Assembly: GCA_009838525.1 (NCBI GenBank)
Contig: VXRJ01000028.1
Span: forward strand, 1 to 64,000
Reading direction: 5' to 3'
DNA: 64,000 nt
Origin: Acidobacteriota bacterium
GTDB taxonomy: Bacteria > Acidobacteriota > Vicinamibacteria > Vicinamibacterales > UBA8438
Shown: piece after piece, positions 15,908-21,672 of the stretch
Layout: each line of letters begins with the position of its first letter
Position numbering within the stretch: the first letter of the stretch is position 1
Position numbers and translations under genes: made by a program
The notes under the pieces: generated by a model
The model's input: only the letters and a program-made list of their open reading frames with translations
Databases searched by the model: none
What the model was told of the DNA's origin: nothing

Positions 15908-16081
15908 TCACGCCGCAGCACGGCCGGAGCTTCGGTAGAGTAGAGCGACCGCCTCGAGGTAGTCGCGGCGCCGTCGGCGGACTAGCGGGGCCGGGCGCGG
16001 CTTGCGCCGCAGGCGCAGGCTGGACGATCATGAACGGTTCCGAGAAGAGGATAGTGCAGGTCCCGCGAGTGCTCGTTCCCC

Positions 16082-17572
16082 TTGCCTGACGTCGACGTCT
16101 ATCTCGTGCCGATCGGCCCCACGCTGTACGAGCTTTACTGCGAGTCGGTCGAGGCCGGTCAGACCGACGACTCCGCGGGCGCGGGGCGAGGCGGCTGGTA
16201 CGCGCGTTTCCGGCAGATGATGGCGGAGGCGCAGGAAGCGCGCCGGACCCGGCGCCTGTCGACGCTGCCGACCGACCCCTCGGAAAGAAGGTCCTGGCTC
16301 ATCCGCCTCCGCAACGTGATCATCGGCTGGATCGCCGAGGCGATCGTCGACTGGCGAATGCTGTGGCACCTGCGGAGCCAGAGCTCGGTCACCCTGGTCC
16401 ATCCCGACGACCTGCAGCCCGACGACGCCGTCGCGGTCGCCCGAGCCGGCCTTCAGCGCGATGCCGACCGCCACGTCCGGCGCCTTGTGGGATCGAGCAT
16501 CGCGGCGGCCATCCTCGGGCCGCTCCTCTTCTTCGTGCCGGGTCCCAACCTGATCGCCTACTACTTCGTCTTCCTCGCCGTCGGGCATCTGCTTGCCTGG
16601 CGCGGGGCGCGGCACGGGTTGACCGGCGTGAAGTGGCGGCCCGCGCCGAGTGCGCCGCTGACGGAGCTGCGCGGCATCCTGAAGGACGATCCGGAGCGCC
16701 GCGCGGCGCATCTGCGCGACGTAGCGGCGCGGCTGAAGCTGGACCACCTGGTGCCCTTCGTCGAGCGGATGCTGGGCCGTCTGCTGGTGGTCGCGCTGCT
16801 GATGCTGGCCAGCGCCGTTCCGGCGGCGGCACAGGCGGTGGGCGGGCCGCGCCCGGCCCAGACGAGCGATCCGCAGCTCGGCTTTCTGACGCGGTACCTC
16901 GCCCATGTCGAGGGCGCCCGCCTCCCGGGCAACGGCGCGGAGGACTTCTCGTGGGACACCGATGTCGGCGTCGACATGGATGTCTTCGATCTTTGGTACC
17001 TGCGAGGCAACGTCTTCCTCAATCTGGAAACGGTCGTGGGCGACGAGCGGCGGCCGATCGATCCGACGCAGACCGCCTACACGATTGACCTGTCGGTCTT
17101 TGCCCGGCTGGTGCGAGGGGAGGTGGGGCTTACGTTCCACCATGTCTCGCGTCACCGGACCGACCGGGAGAGCCCCGGTTCGCCGGCCTGGAACCACATT
17201 GGCCTCTCCTACGGCGACCGGATGCAGATGGGATCGTTCGACGTCGATCTCGGCATCCGCGCGATGACGCTGATCACCGGGTCCGAGGTGGACTACAAGC
17301 AGGAGGCGAACGTCTGGGTCCGCGTCATCCGCCCCGTCACCAGTCGCATCTCGCTCATCGGCGAGCTGGACGGTACCTTGCTCCGGAGCGATCCCGACTG
17401 GTTCGGCCGGCACGGCGACTATGGCGGCATCGCGCGGTTCGGGCTGCGGTTCCGCGGCGGGGTCGGGGCGGGCGAAGTGCTGATCGGCCGTGAGCGGCGG
17501 ATCGATCCCGGCCTGTACGTCCGCGAGCCGGCGCGCTGGACCCGTCTGGCGTTTCGCTTCGTGCTCGACTGA
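16082..17572 (+). CDS. Mit_KHE1-like membrane domain fused in frame to a signal-peptide-plus-beta-barrel module
   Basis: One uninterrupted 496-codon frame encodes two unlike modules. Residues 1-225 resemble the mitochondrial K+/H+-exchange-related (Mit_KHE1, PF10173) family: DVYLVPIG at the N terminus, a mid helix (RNVIIGWIAEAIVDWRML) and hydrophobic helices around 135-172 with FFVPGPNLIAYY. Residues 230-252 (MLGRLLVVALLMLASAVPAAAQA) look exactly like a fresh signal peptide. Beyond it come ~240 residues of alternating polar/aromatic strands ending in Phe-Val-Leu-Asp, like an outer-membrane barrel. The only possible start is a TTG at 16082, which sits right before the conserved VYLVP segment. 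Either this is a fusion cut by signal peptidase, or a barrel gene starts internally at the ATG at 16769. Function is unknown. Confidence 0.6.
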   Translation: MPDVDVYLVPIGPTLYELYCESVEAGQTDDSAGAGRGGWYARFRQMMAEAQEARRTRRLSTLPTDPSERRSWLIRLRNVIIGWIAEAIVDWRMLWHLRSQSSVTLVHPDDLQPDDAVAVARAGLQRDADRHVRRLVGSSIAAAILGPLLFFVPGPNLIAYYFVFLAVGHLLAWRGARHGLTGVKWRPAPSAPLTELRGILKDDPERRAAHLRDVAARLKLDHLVPFVERMLGRLLVVALLMLASAVPAAAQAVGGPRPAQTSDPQLGFLTRYLAHVEGARLPGNGAEDFSWDTDVGVDMDVFDLWYLRGNVFLNLETVVGDERRPIDPTQTAYTIDLSVFARLVRGEVGLTFHHVSRHRTDRESPGSPAWNHIGLSYGDRMQMGSFDVDLGIRAMTLITGSEVDYKQEANVWVRVIRPVTSRISLIGELDGTLLRSDPDWFGRHGDYGGIARFGLRFRGGVGAGEVLIGRERRIDPGLYVREPARWTRLAFRFVLD

Positions 17573-17626: not shown

Positions 17627-19000
17627 ATGCGTTCCCGGCCGCGTTTCTGCCGTGCCGCTGCGTTCGCGGCAATCACCGCCGTCCTGGCGGGCGTTTTCGT
17701 CGTTGCGGGGGGCGCGCAGGTTCGGCCGACGAAGTTCGATTACCGACTCGAAACGCTCGACAATGGACTGAGGGTGATCCTCTCCGAGGACCGCTCCACC
17801 CCTATTGTCCACCTGCAGCTCTGGTACCACGTCGGATCGCGCGACGAGCCGCCGGGCCGCACCGGGTTCGCCCACCTGTTCGAGCACCTCATGTTCCAGG
17901 GGTCGCACAACCTTCAACGGGGCGACCACCTGGCCCTCATCACGCGCATCGGCGGCGAAGGCAACGCCTACACGACCGACGACTCCACCGTCTACCACGC
18001 AACGGTCCCGGGCGAGTACCTGCCGCTGGTGCTGTGGATGGAAGCGGATCGGATGGCGACCCTCCGGATCAACCAGGAGGGACTTGACGCCGAACGCGAA
18101 GTGGTGAAGGAAGAGCGCCGCCTCCGGTACGAGAACGAGCCGTTCGGCCTTCTGAACGAGATTCTGTACGAGCACGCCTTCACCACGCACCCCTACCGGC
18201 ATACAACGATCGGTTCGATGGAAGACATAGAGGCGGCGCGGATCGAGGACGTGCGGGAGTTCTTCGACACCTACTACGTCCCGGAGAACGCCACGCTGGC
18301 CCTGGTGGGCGACTTCGACACCGACTACGCGTTCCAGCTCGTGCAGCACTTCTTCGGGCGGGTCCCGAAGGCGGAACGCCCGGTGCCTCGCGACCTGCCG
18401 CGCGAGCCCGCGCCGGCGGGCCCGCGCAACGTGACCGTCGAAGCCGACAACTGGCCGTTGCCGGCGGTCATCGTGGCCCACCCCGTGACCTACGACGGGC
18501 ACCCCGACGCCTACCCGCTCCACATCCTCTCGAAGGTGCTGTCCGATGGGCAGAGCGCGCGGATCTACCGGCGGCTGGTGTACGAGCAGCAGGTCGCGGT
18601 CACCGCTTTCGGCCAGTCGGTGCTGATCGAGGATCCGAACCTCTTCTACGCGGTGGCGCTCGTGCCGCCGGGACGGTCGACGGACGAAGCGGCGGCGGCG
18701 CTGATCGCGGAGCTCGACCGGGCGAAGACCGATCCGCCGACCGACGCCGAGCTGCAGCGGGCCAAGAACCAGTTCGCTCGCGATTACGTCATCGGCCGGA
18801 TCACGATCGAGCAGAAGGCGATGCATCTCGCGCACGCGGTGGTGGCGCATGACGACGTGACCACCGCCGACGCCGAGTTCGACATCTTCATGAACGTGTC
18901 GAGCGACGACGTGCAGCGGGTGGCCCGGACCTACCTGCGCGACGAGAATCGCCTCGTGCTGACGATCCTGCCCCGGGGCAGCGGGGGGGGCGGACAGTGA
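17627..19000 (+). CDS. M16-family zinc metallopeptidase, catalytic partner
   Basis: A 457-residue exported peptidase of the M16 (pitrilysin/PqqL-like) family. A signal peptide (about 1-30) precedes the inverted zinc motif H83-L-F-E86-H87 (AHLFEHLMF), followed by the downstream glutamate-bearing helix (EREVVKEERRLRYE) that supplies the third ligand. An R/Y-type C-terminal half (GQSARIYRRLVYEQQ) completes the two-lobed clam fold. Its stop overlaps the GTG of the next gene (GTGA, 18997-19000), which encodes an M16 protein with a degenerate active site. The two probably form an active/inactive heterodimer in the periplasm, as in other M16B pairs. Substrate unknown. Confidence 0.92.
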   Translation: MRSRPRFCRAAAFAAITAVLAGVFVVAGGAQVRPTKFDYRLETLDNGLRVILSEDRSTPIVHLQLWYHVGSRDEPPGRTGFAHLFEHLMFQGSHNLQRGDHLALITRIGGEGNAYTTDDSTVYHATVPGEYLPLVLWMEADRMATLRINQEGLDAEREVVKEERRLRYENEPFGLLNEILYEHAFTTHPYRHTTIGSMEDIEAARIEDVREFFDTYYVPENATLALVGDFDTDYAFQLVQHFFGRVPKAERPVPRDLPREPAPAGPRNVTVEADNWPLPAVIVAHPVTYDGHPDAYPLHILSKVLSDGQSARIYRRLVYEQQVAVTAFGQSVLIEDPNLFYAVALVPPGRSTDEAAAALIAELDRAKTDPPTDAELQRAKNQFARDYVIGRITIEQKAMHLAHAVVAHDDVTTADAEFDIFMNVSSDDVQRVARTYLRDENRLVLTILPRGSGGGGQ

Positions 19001-20511
19001 GGGCGGCCCGTACCTGGAGGACGCCCGCGCCTGCCGCCGCCGCGGCGCTGGCATGCGCCGTCGCGACCCTGGCCATCGCCTCGTCCGCCTCCGCCCAGCG
19101 GGTCGACTGGCCGCGGGAACAGCCGCCGCCGCCGCTCGACCGGCGCGCCATGGTCTTCCCGCACTACGAGATCCGGTCGCTCGCGAACGGCCTGCAAGTG
19201 ATCTACGTCGGCCACCACGAGCAGCCGGCCGTGAGTGTCCGCATGATCCTGCGGGCCGGGACCGCGTCCGATCCAGCCGGCAAACCGGGCGTTGCCCAGT
19301 TCGTGGGCCGGCTGCTCGATCAGGGGACCACGACCCGCTCGGCGCAGGAGATCGCCACGACCATCGACAGCATCGGCGGCGCGCTCGGTGTCGGCGCGGC
19401 CCGCGAGCTGAGCTTCGTGGACGCGCTGGTCCTGAAGAACGACTTCGACCTCGCGCTCGATCTGCTGTCCGACGTGGCGCGGCGCCCGGCGTTCGATCCG
19501 GCCGAGATCGAACGGCAGCGCACGCAGGTCCTCAACAGCTTCCAGGTGAGCTACGAGGATCCTGGCTATCTCGCGGGAGTCGTCTTCAACCGCCTGGTGT
19601 ACGGCTTCCATCCGTACGGGATGCCCCAGGGGGGAACGCCCGAATCGGTTCGCGCGGTCACGCGCGAGGACCTCGTGGCGTTTCACCGAACCCACTATCT
19701 GCCGAACAACGCGTTGATCGCGGTGGTGGGCGACGTCACGGCCGACGAGGCGTTCGCCGGGGTGGAGCGGGTGCTGGGTGACTGGCCGGCGGGAGCCGTG
19801 GAGCCGCCCGCGGCGGGAGTCGAGACGATTCCGATGCCGACCCGCCGCCTCGTCGTGATCAACCGCCCGGGCGCCGTGCAGACCGTCATCCGGGCCGGCC
19901 ATGTCGCGCTGCCGCGCGACCACGACGATTTCCTGACGTTCGACCTGGCGATCAAGATCCTGGGGGGTGACGGAGGCAACCGGCTCGCTGGCGTGCTCCG
20001 GACCGACCGGCAACTCACGTACTCGGCGAGCGCCGATCTGGCGGGGCAGCTTCTGTCGGGCGACTTCCTCGCCCAGACCGACACGCGCACCGAGGCCACC
20101 GCCGAGGCCCTCCGGGTCATGGTGGACGAAATCGCCCGGCTCCGGCGGGACCGCGTCAGCCGCCGCGAGCTGCGCGGGGCGCAGGACTACCTGGCCGGGA
20201 GCTTTCCGATCACGCTAGAGACGCCCAACGCCATCGCCGCGCGTGTGCTCGAGGCGATGCTCTTCGGCCTCGACCTCGACACGATCGAGCAGTACCCGCA
20301 ACGGATCAACGCGGTGACGCCGCGCGAGATCCAGCGTGCGGCGGAGGCGCACCTCCATCCCGACAACCTGTCAATCGTGCTGGTGGGCGACGCGTCCACG
20401 TTCATCCGCGACCTGCCGGCCGTCGGGTTCGACCGGATCGAAGTCGTGCCGGTCGCCGAACTCGACCTGACCGCGCCCGACCTCCGCGGAGGCGGGCGAC
20501 GCGGGCAGTAG
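18997..20511 (+). CDS. M16-family peptidase-like subunit, catalytically degenerate
   Basis: A 504-residue M16 homologue with a signal peptide (about 1-33, ending ASA). Aligned on its partner, the zinc motif HLFEH is replaced by Q101-F-V-G104-R105, so it should not bind catalytic zinc. The R/Y-pair-like region is retained (GDGGNRLAGVLRTDRQLTYS). It starts at a GTG overlapping the stop of the active gene by 4 bp, indicating coupled synthesis, and ends 9 bp before lpxB. In characterised M16B pairs the inactive subunit shapes the chamber and supplies C-terminal domain residues; that role is inferred here. Periplasmic. Confidence 0.9.
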   Translation: MRAARTWRTPAPAAAAALACAVATLAIASSASAQRVDWPREQPPPPLDRRAMVFPHYEIRSLANGLQVIYVGHHEQPAVSVRMILRAGTASDPAGKPGVAQFVGRLLDQGTTTRSAQEIATTIDSIGGALGVGAARELSFVDALVLKNDFDLALDLLSDVARRPAFDPAEIERQRTQVLNSFQVSYEDPGYLAGVVFNRLVYGFHPYGMPQGGTPESVRAVTREDLVAFHRTHYLPNNALIAVVGDVTADEAFAGVERVLGDWPAGAVEPPAAGVETIPMPTRRLVVINRPGAVQTVIRAGHVALPRDHDDFLTFDLAIKILGGDGGNRLAGVLRTDRQLTYSASADLAGQLLSGDFLAQTDTRTEATAEALRVMVDEIARLRRDRVSRRELRGAQDYLAGSFPITLETPNAIAARVLEAMLFGLDLDTIEQYPQRINAVTPREIQRAAEAHLHPDNLSIVLVGDASTFIRDLPAVGFDRIEVVPVAELDLTAPDLRGGGRRGQ

Positions 20512-20520
20512 TCCACGCCA

Positions 20521-21672
20521 GTGATCCTCATCTCGTGCGGCGAACCCTCGGGTGACCTGTACGCCGGCGCCCTGACCCGCGCGTTGCGTGCGGTTGATCC
20601 CTCGGTGACGGTTTGCGGCCTCGGCGGCGACCACCTGCGCGATGCCGGCGCGGAGCTGGTGGGGCACTACCGGGGGCTGGCCGCGACCGGGTTGTCGGAA
20701 GCGCTCGCGGTAGTGCCCCGCTCGTTCGCGACCTACCGGCGCATGGTGGCGCGCGCCCGCGCGGAGAGGCCGGATGTCTTCGTAGCGATCGATTTCCCGG
20801 AGATCAACTTCCGCGTCGCCGCGGCGATGCGCCGCCTGGGCGTGCCCGTCGTCTACTACATCGGACCGCAGCTCTGGGCGTGGCGGCGGGGCCGGATCCG
20901 GACGATGGGGCAGGTCGTCGACCGGGTTCTCGTGATCTTTCCGTTCGAGACGGAGATCTATCGCCAGGCGGATATCCCGGTCGAGTTCGTGGGCCATCCG
21001 CTGCTGGAAGTGACGACGCCGTCGGTTGCGCGGGAGCCCTTCCTGCGTGAGCTGGGGCTCGATCCGGCCGCGCCGACCGTCGCCCTGCTGCCGGGGAGCC
21101 GGCCGAACGAGCTGCGCGCAATCCTGCCCGATGTGGCGCACGCGGCCAGGCGCATCCGCGAGCGCGTGCCGGGCGCGCAGTTTGTCGTCGCCCGGGCGCC
21201 GCAGCTTGACGAGGACCTCTTTGCGCCAATCGGACCGCTCGTGTCCGCAGGCGTGGCGGCGGTGGTGGAAGGGCGGACCGACGACGCCCTGGCGGCGTCC
21301 GACGCCGTAGTTACCGCGTCGGGCACGGCGACCGTGCAGGCCGCCATCCATCAGAAGCCGATGGTGATCGTCTACCGGTTGTCGGCCATCACCTTCTGCA
21401 TCGTGAAGGCGTTTTCTCACGTCCCGAACGCGGGGATGGTGAATCTGATCGCGGGAAGGCAGGTGGTGCCGGAACTCCTGCAGGATGCCTTCACGCCGGA
21501 CGCGGTGGCCGACGAAGTGGTCCGTTTCCTGACGGATACGGAACTCGCCGTCCGCACGCGCGCCGCGCTCGCGGACGTGCGCGACCGACTGGGCAGTCCG
21601 GGCGCCAGCCGTCGCGCCGCGGCGCGTATTCTGGAGTCCGCGCGACGGACGGGCCAGCCCAACCCCATATAA
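20521..21672 (+). CDS. lpxB: Lipid-A-disaccharide synthase
   Basis: A 383-residue GT-B glycosyltransferase (GT19) that joins UDP-2,3-diacylglucosamine to lipid X in lipid A synthesis at the inner membrane face. The N terminus ILISCGEPSGDLYAGAL, the IDFPEINFR segment, the IGPQLWAWRRGR block and the LLPGSRPNEL motif are diagnostic. The GTG start at 20521 lies 9 bp after the M16 subunit stop. The gene is not next to lpxA/lpxD/fabZ as in proteobacteria, but sits between exported peptidases and the Oar-like receptor. Its presence shows the organism makes lipid A. Confidence 0.95.
   Translation: MILISCGEPSGDLYAGALTRALRAVDPSVTVCGLGGDHLRDAGAELVGHYRGLAATGLSEALAVVPRSFATYRRMVARARAERPDVFVAIDFPEINFRVAAAMRRLGVPVVYYIGPQLWAWRRGRIRTMGQVVDRVLVIFPFETEIYRQADIPVEFVGHPLLEVTTPSVAREPFLRELGLDPAAPTVALLPGSRPNELRAILPDVAHAARRIRERVPGAQFVVARAPQLDEDLFAPIGPLVSAGVAAVVEGRTDDALAASDAVVTASGTATVQAAIHQKPMVIVYRLSAITFCIVKAFSHVPNAGMVNLIAGRQVVPELLQDAFTPDAVADEVVRFLTDTELAVRTRAALADVRDRLGSPGASRRAAARILESARRTGQPNPI

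Follow-up and report, generated by a model that had tools for sequence, protein, structure and literature searches.

Within the window (the whole 64,000-nucleotide stretch that was analysed, from an uncultured acidobacterium assigned to Vicinamibacterales by its named relatives), positions 16082–17572 of the forward strand form one open frame that encodes a KHE domain, a signal peptide and an outer-membrane barrel. Judging from the sequence and its relatives, we consider it probable (roughly 0.6) that this frame arose by a recent in-frame gene fusion, and that its product is a precursor which signal peptidase I would split into the KHE protein and the barrel. The parts of the fused gene are the following:

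16082–16771, + strand: Mit_KHE1-like domain, residues 1–230 (PF10173 match, relatives, hydropathy, AlphaFold2 model)
16769–16771, + strand: ATG that encodes the last conserved KHE residue (the Met of FVERM) and is also the first signal-peptide codon; possible internal start
16769–16831, + strand: internal signal peptide MLGRLLVVALLMLASAVPAAA, residues 230–250 (sequence, family conservation, hydropathy)
16832–17572, + strand: outer-membrane barrel with 12 strands, family unnamed, stop codon included (AlphaFold2, family alignment, fold search)

A Single Open Frame

Upon translation, positions 16082–17569 (+) give 496 residues without a stop, followed by a TGA at 17570–17572. This bears out a sequence-only reading of the same DNA, which had described a stop-free run from the KHE module into a signal peptide and a barrel. 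The same reading had remarked on a TTG start with no in-frame alternative, and indeed TTG 16082 is the sole usual start of the fused frame; a TTG occupies this position in three of the four nearest relatives as well. The frame is open for 27 nt directly upstream of the TTG, back to a TAG. The third-position GC content of the fused gene is high and continuous over the junction (0.92 before, 0.87 after).

An open frame by itself is weak evidence of fusion in GC-rich DNA. The case for fusion rests on the fact that both halves are homologous to their relatives and read in one frame all the way to the shared ATG. When the genome was searched, no second copy of either half was found elsewhere in it.

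A short frame, MNGSEKRIVQVPRVLVPLA, occupies positions 16030–16089, its TGA (16087–16089) lying just past the TTG of the fused gene. It could be a leader peptide or a chance occurrence.

The KHE Half

An HMM search of each half had been proposed as a check along with the sequence-only reading. Residues 99–178 match PF10173 (Mit_KHE1) with E = 4.8e-7, scoring 30.6 bits where the cut-off is 22.5, so that the call of a Mit_KHE1-like domain holds; all 30 relatives of the KHE half match the same model. Every family-invariant residue is retained.

This half consists of a beta hairpin, helices, a two-helix membrane hairpin and a conserved C-terminal helix ending in FVERM. The membrane hairpin (about residues 137–176) carries the motif FFVPGPN and, by hydropathy and charge, is one hydrophobic hairpin with positive charge on both sides, which would place both ends of the KHE half in the cytoplasm. 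Beyond FVER the tail is short and variable among relatives, and a C-terminal extension is therefore plausibly tolerated. One relative (locus L059, genome G021) has an in-frame TAG within the last KHE residues (LATLI-stop-R), ahead of the usual FVER end.

We know of no bacterial PF10173 member with a demonstrated transport function. The domain is shared, above the Pfam cut-off, with YDL183C, a mitochondrial K+/H+ exchange-related protein; this yeast protein is itself only said to be possibly involved in K+ transport (PMC9105532). Among the viral contigs searched, none carried a relative of the KHE half.

The Internal Signal Peptide

The segment MLGRLLVVALLMLASAVPAAA has the basic start, the hydrophobic core and the A-x-A site of a Sec/signal peptidase I signal peptide, with a hydropathy peak of 2.46 at residues 234–250. 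The complete signal peptide that had been placed at residues 230–252 is thus recovered intact at residues 230–250, ending AAA|Q. The cut by signal peptidase I is predicted after A250, before Q251. Among the aligned barrel relatives that cover this position, Q is found at +1 in all 31, and A at −1 in 29 of the 31.

The Barrel Half

When the barrel was modeled with AlphaFold2 together with 49 relatives, a 12-strand barrel was obtained (mean pLDDT 84.6, pTM 0.79), in agreement with the barrel-like domain of about 240 residues that had been suggested from the sequence. In the AlphaFold2 model of the full chain (pTM 0.54) the halves are separate domains; a merging of both parts into one domain, which had been put forward as an observation that would speak against a fusion, was not seen. 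The link (residues 236–253) has a pLDDT below 50, and this low confidence in the signal-peptide region fits a linker but proves nothing.

As in the KHE half, every family-invariant residue is retained. The last 267 residues have no match in Pfam or NCBIfam, and the barrel family is nameless in both. Sequence searches of the PDB with the KHE and barrel profiles yielded nothing of use. In a fold search against solved structures, the best match on a second look was OMPLA (1qd6_C), whose residues 30–266 aligned with residues 41–265 of the model at Z = 18.3 and an rmsd of 2.8 Å over 203 residues. The copper protein PcoB (7pge) ties with OMPLA at Z = 18.3, and other 12-strand porins score Z = 15–16. 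LpxR was rejected as the identity of the barrel, given its lower fold score (Z = 12.7). PagL was considered as a candidate on account of its HxS motif.

A Candidate Active Site

The residues at issue are these:

17141–17149, + strand: HVS, closing strand 5; its His (barrel residue 125) and its Ser (127) are both invariant (49 sequences, AlphaFold2 strand limits)
17189–17194, + strand: W141-N142 at the start of strand 6, N142 being invariant and the proposed third member of a triad (alignment, AlphaFold2)

H125, S127 and N142 are invariant in the barrel family (49 sequences), whose motif is HVSRH, with H, S, R and H invariant. The catalytic triad of OMPLA, His142-Ser144-Asn156, lies on the outside of the barrel, and the catalytic motif is HxSNG (PMC5043575). 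The likeness to OMPLA (PldA, PF02253) would comprise a 12-strand barrel with a lipid-facing His-x-Ser ending strand 5 and an Asn opening strand 6. By strand count on the E. coli sequence, without residue-level superposition, H125, S127 and N142 stand at the same strand ends as the OMPLA triad, given what we take to be the strand limits of OMPLA. By alternation along the strand, H125 and S127 share a face with V119, L121 and F123 and so should face lipid. A Ser/Thr-Asp pair four to five residues past the Ser, and a Trp before the Asn, are likewise common to the barrel family and E. coli OMPLA.

On the other hand, the barrel family shows HVSRH where OMPLA has HxSNG, and its Ser and Asn are spaced three residues further apart. 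These two differences, the absence of any PF02253 match among 29 barrel members at E up to 1, and an hhalign comparison with an OMPLA alignment that lent no support (probability 0.4%) led us to reject the identification of the barrel as PldA. A search of the fusion genome found no PF02253 protein. The barrel, as modeled, may function like OMPLA, yet it should not be filed as PldA.

Downstream of the fused gene lie the following:

17627–19000 and 18997–20511, + strand: two M16 peptidase genes
20521–21672, + strand: lpxB, lipid-A-disaccharide synthase (PF02684, E = 1e-78)

The presence of lpxB downstream here, and of lpxD upstream of the barrel gene in relatives (see below), suggests a role of the barrel in outer-leaflet lipid. 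From the fold, the positions of His, Ser and Asn, and the lpxD and lpxB neighbours, we infer that the barrel may be an acyl hydrolase of the OMPLA type, with lipid of the outer leaflet as its substrate.

Separate Genes in Relatives

We examined 162 Vicinamibacterales genomes, of which 152 match one or both halves, and read as DNA the 50 distinct related loci in which both halves lie on one contig. When genome contigs were scanned, the barrel profile gave matches and the whole fused protein gave none. The genus of the fusion genome is represented by that genome alone.

Whether homologues are fused or split had been posed as a check on the fusion, and they are split: in all 50 loci a stop closes the KHE frame ahead of the barrel gene. 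A stop between the halves in close relatives, combined with a sequencing error here, had also been named as grounds for discarding the fusion. The stop is indeed present in relatives, but the junction in the fusion genome is changed and has not merely lost a stop, and a sequencing error is unlikely.

The commonest gene order in Vicinamibacterales loci is KHE-lpxD-barrel. The gene between KHE and barrel is lpxD by its sequence, and PF04613 is found between the halves in genomes G009, G012, G019, G028, G029, G033 and G072. When lpxD is not in this position, it usually occurs once elsewhere in the genome; in the fusion genome it is on another contig. Several lineages have lpxD outside the conserved KHE-lpxD-barrel cluster, which is exemplified by loci L056, L058 and L070. 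Beyond Vicinamibacterales the barrel is nearly absent: the genomes sampled there yielded it once, in a member of the same class.

Two contigs from Vicinamibacterales with separate genes, CATQHX010000021.1 and JAGWAH010000008.1, have the same proteins in the same order and on the same strand, with the same signal peptide and A|Q site. Such genomes have a stop between the halves, whereas the fusion genome has one frame.

In the nearest genus (G001, G010, G017 and G023; 61–65% identical), the locus has no lpxD, and the KHE and barrel genes abut or overlap. The KHE protein ends there in FVERM-AVRRR-stop; the TTG of the barrel gene overlaps the KHE stop in G017 (TTGA), and KHE and barrel overlap through TGATG in G001 and G023. 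In the fused gene the KHE stop is gone, and FVERM passes directly into LGRLLVVALL. By base count, the shared ATG lies a net 14 nt closer to the cleavage site than the corresponding codon does in G017, and the frame is changed as a result. From these comparisons, the fusion is apparently one short step away from overlapping genes.

A listing of open frames had suggested fusions in G006, G014, genus g32 and G150 as well, but in their DNA the halves are separated by one or two stops in frame. KHE and barrel lie in the same frame and are separated by a single stop in loci L099, L097 (genus g7), L109, L111, L129 (genus g32) and L124 (G150). Pairs with exactly one such stop would be fused by a single stop loss.

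Probable Origin and Processing of the Fused Chain

According to the reading that we prefer, the starting state would have been KHE-lpxD-barrel; lpxD would then have gone from the locus, leaving KHE and barrel to abut or overlap, and the short junction would have been lost next, making one frame out of two while the barrel signal peptide stayed intact. The fused frame would be translated as a single precursor. Its KHE hairpin would insert in the inner membrane, leaving both termini in the cytoplasm, so that the internal signal peptide would enter Sec in the usual direction. Signal peptidase I would cut after A250 (AAA250). The barrel would then reach the outer membrane by way of the periplasm, and the KHE part would keep the signal peptide, giving it a third membrane helix. 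The fusion is known from one genome, with transcription, translation, topology, cleavage and export all predicted from its sequence.

The sequence-only reading had seen two ways to reconcile an inner-membrane protein with an attached barrel, namely cleavage by signal peptidase or separate translation of the barrel from ATG 16769. Cleavage is the better supported of the two, the A-x-A|Q site being kept as in the barrel relatives; judged by eye, ten other signal peptides of the window (see the last section) share the Q after the cut. The second may operate, but we think it unlikely that the barrel is mostly translated from this ATG, with read-through from KHE giving a minor fused product. In favour of this chief alternative, the signal peptide that the ATG opens is complete, and in the nearest relatives the barrel has a start of its own at overlapping codons. 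However, it lacks a well-spaced Shine-Dalgarno sequence (the best duplex, −5.2 kcal/mol, is 14 nt off), and the GGCGGUU found 8 nt upstream of the relatives' TTG is missing. Stop-restart coupling is impossible at this ATG, because no stop is nearby. An internal start would also leave KHE without an end of its own; lacking a stop, KHE can be made only with the barrel attached, whatever happens at ATG 16769.

It is improbable, though the fusion rests on one metagenome-type genome, that a base was lost or gained at the junction through an assembly or sequencing error and that the genes really overlap as in the nearest genus. The KHE frame, shifted by one base, does reach a TGA after nine codons, overlapping an ATG, but the resulting tail (WAVCWWSRC) resembles no relative's tail. 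Moreover, the two halves keep one frame as far as a common codon, which would confine any error to a few bases around ATGCTGG, where runs do not exceed three. The adjoining genes are full length: an amidase (445/445 positions), an outer-membrane barrel (838/838), the two M16 peptidases and LpxB. Very little likelihood attaches to a chain that stays uncleaved and tethers both domains across the envelope. The continuous frame would favour it, but the cleavage site is intact, and only about 20 residues (251–270) separate the signal from the first strand. This spacer is too short for the periplasm, and a barrel left attached would hardly get as far as the outer membrane. Slighter still is the chance of a dead-end mutation with one half heading for loss; some members of the order do lack the barrel, and lpxD has been moved or replaced in some, but both halves keep their invariant residues and have diverged to a similar degree. 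With pN/pS values against the nearest genus of 0.44–0.52 in both halves (near saturation, hence a rough guide), neither half appears to be decaying.

The cleaved precursor can be combined with the putative enzyme function into a broader proposal, in which an outer-membrane enzyme would derive from a precursor that begins with an entire inner-membrane protein and continues through an internal signal, so that signal peptidase I would release the two proteins in a fixed 1:1 ratio; the barrel would represent a new OMPLA-like hydrolase family linked to lipid A genes. We advance this tentatively, at rather less than even odds.

Precedent and Implications

FbcH of Bradyrhizobium japonicum is a cytochrome b/c1 precursor that is cut at an internal signal sequence, and its cleavage has been demonstrated. 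The fused gene resembles it in that a multi-span inner-membrane protein, an internal signal peptide and a domain destined for export are encoded, in this order, by one gene. However, both products of FbcH stay in one inner-membrane complex, whereas here cleavage is a prediction and the second product is a predicted outer-membrane barrel. To our knowledge, no outer-membrane barrel has been described before that follows an entire inner-membrane domain.

The fusion seems to have been caught one step past overlapping adjacent genes, with intermediate arrangements surviving in relatives. It offers a clean test of whether cells can produce an outer-membrane barrel whose cleavable signal lies inside the chain, after a full inner-membrane domain. 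The barrel family is common in Vicinamibacterales, and its OMPLA-like active-site pattern and steady link with lpxD make the presumed enzyme function testable.

Signal Peptides Elsewhere in the Window

A Q following the signal-peptide cut has been described as specific to Bacteroidetes (PMC5837995); Acidobacteria are not named in the main text of that study. The window was scanned roughly, and ten signal peptides were judged convincing by eye, those of genes near 1600, 15006, 17614, 18852, 21672, 34953, 37080, 38911, 45072 and 56240. All ten ended in A or G and were followed by Q.
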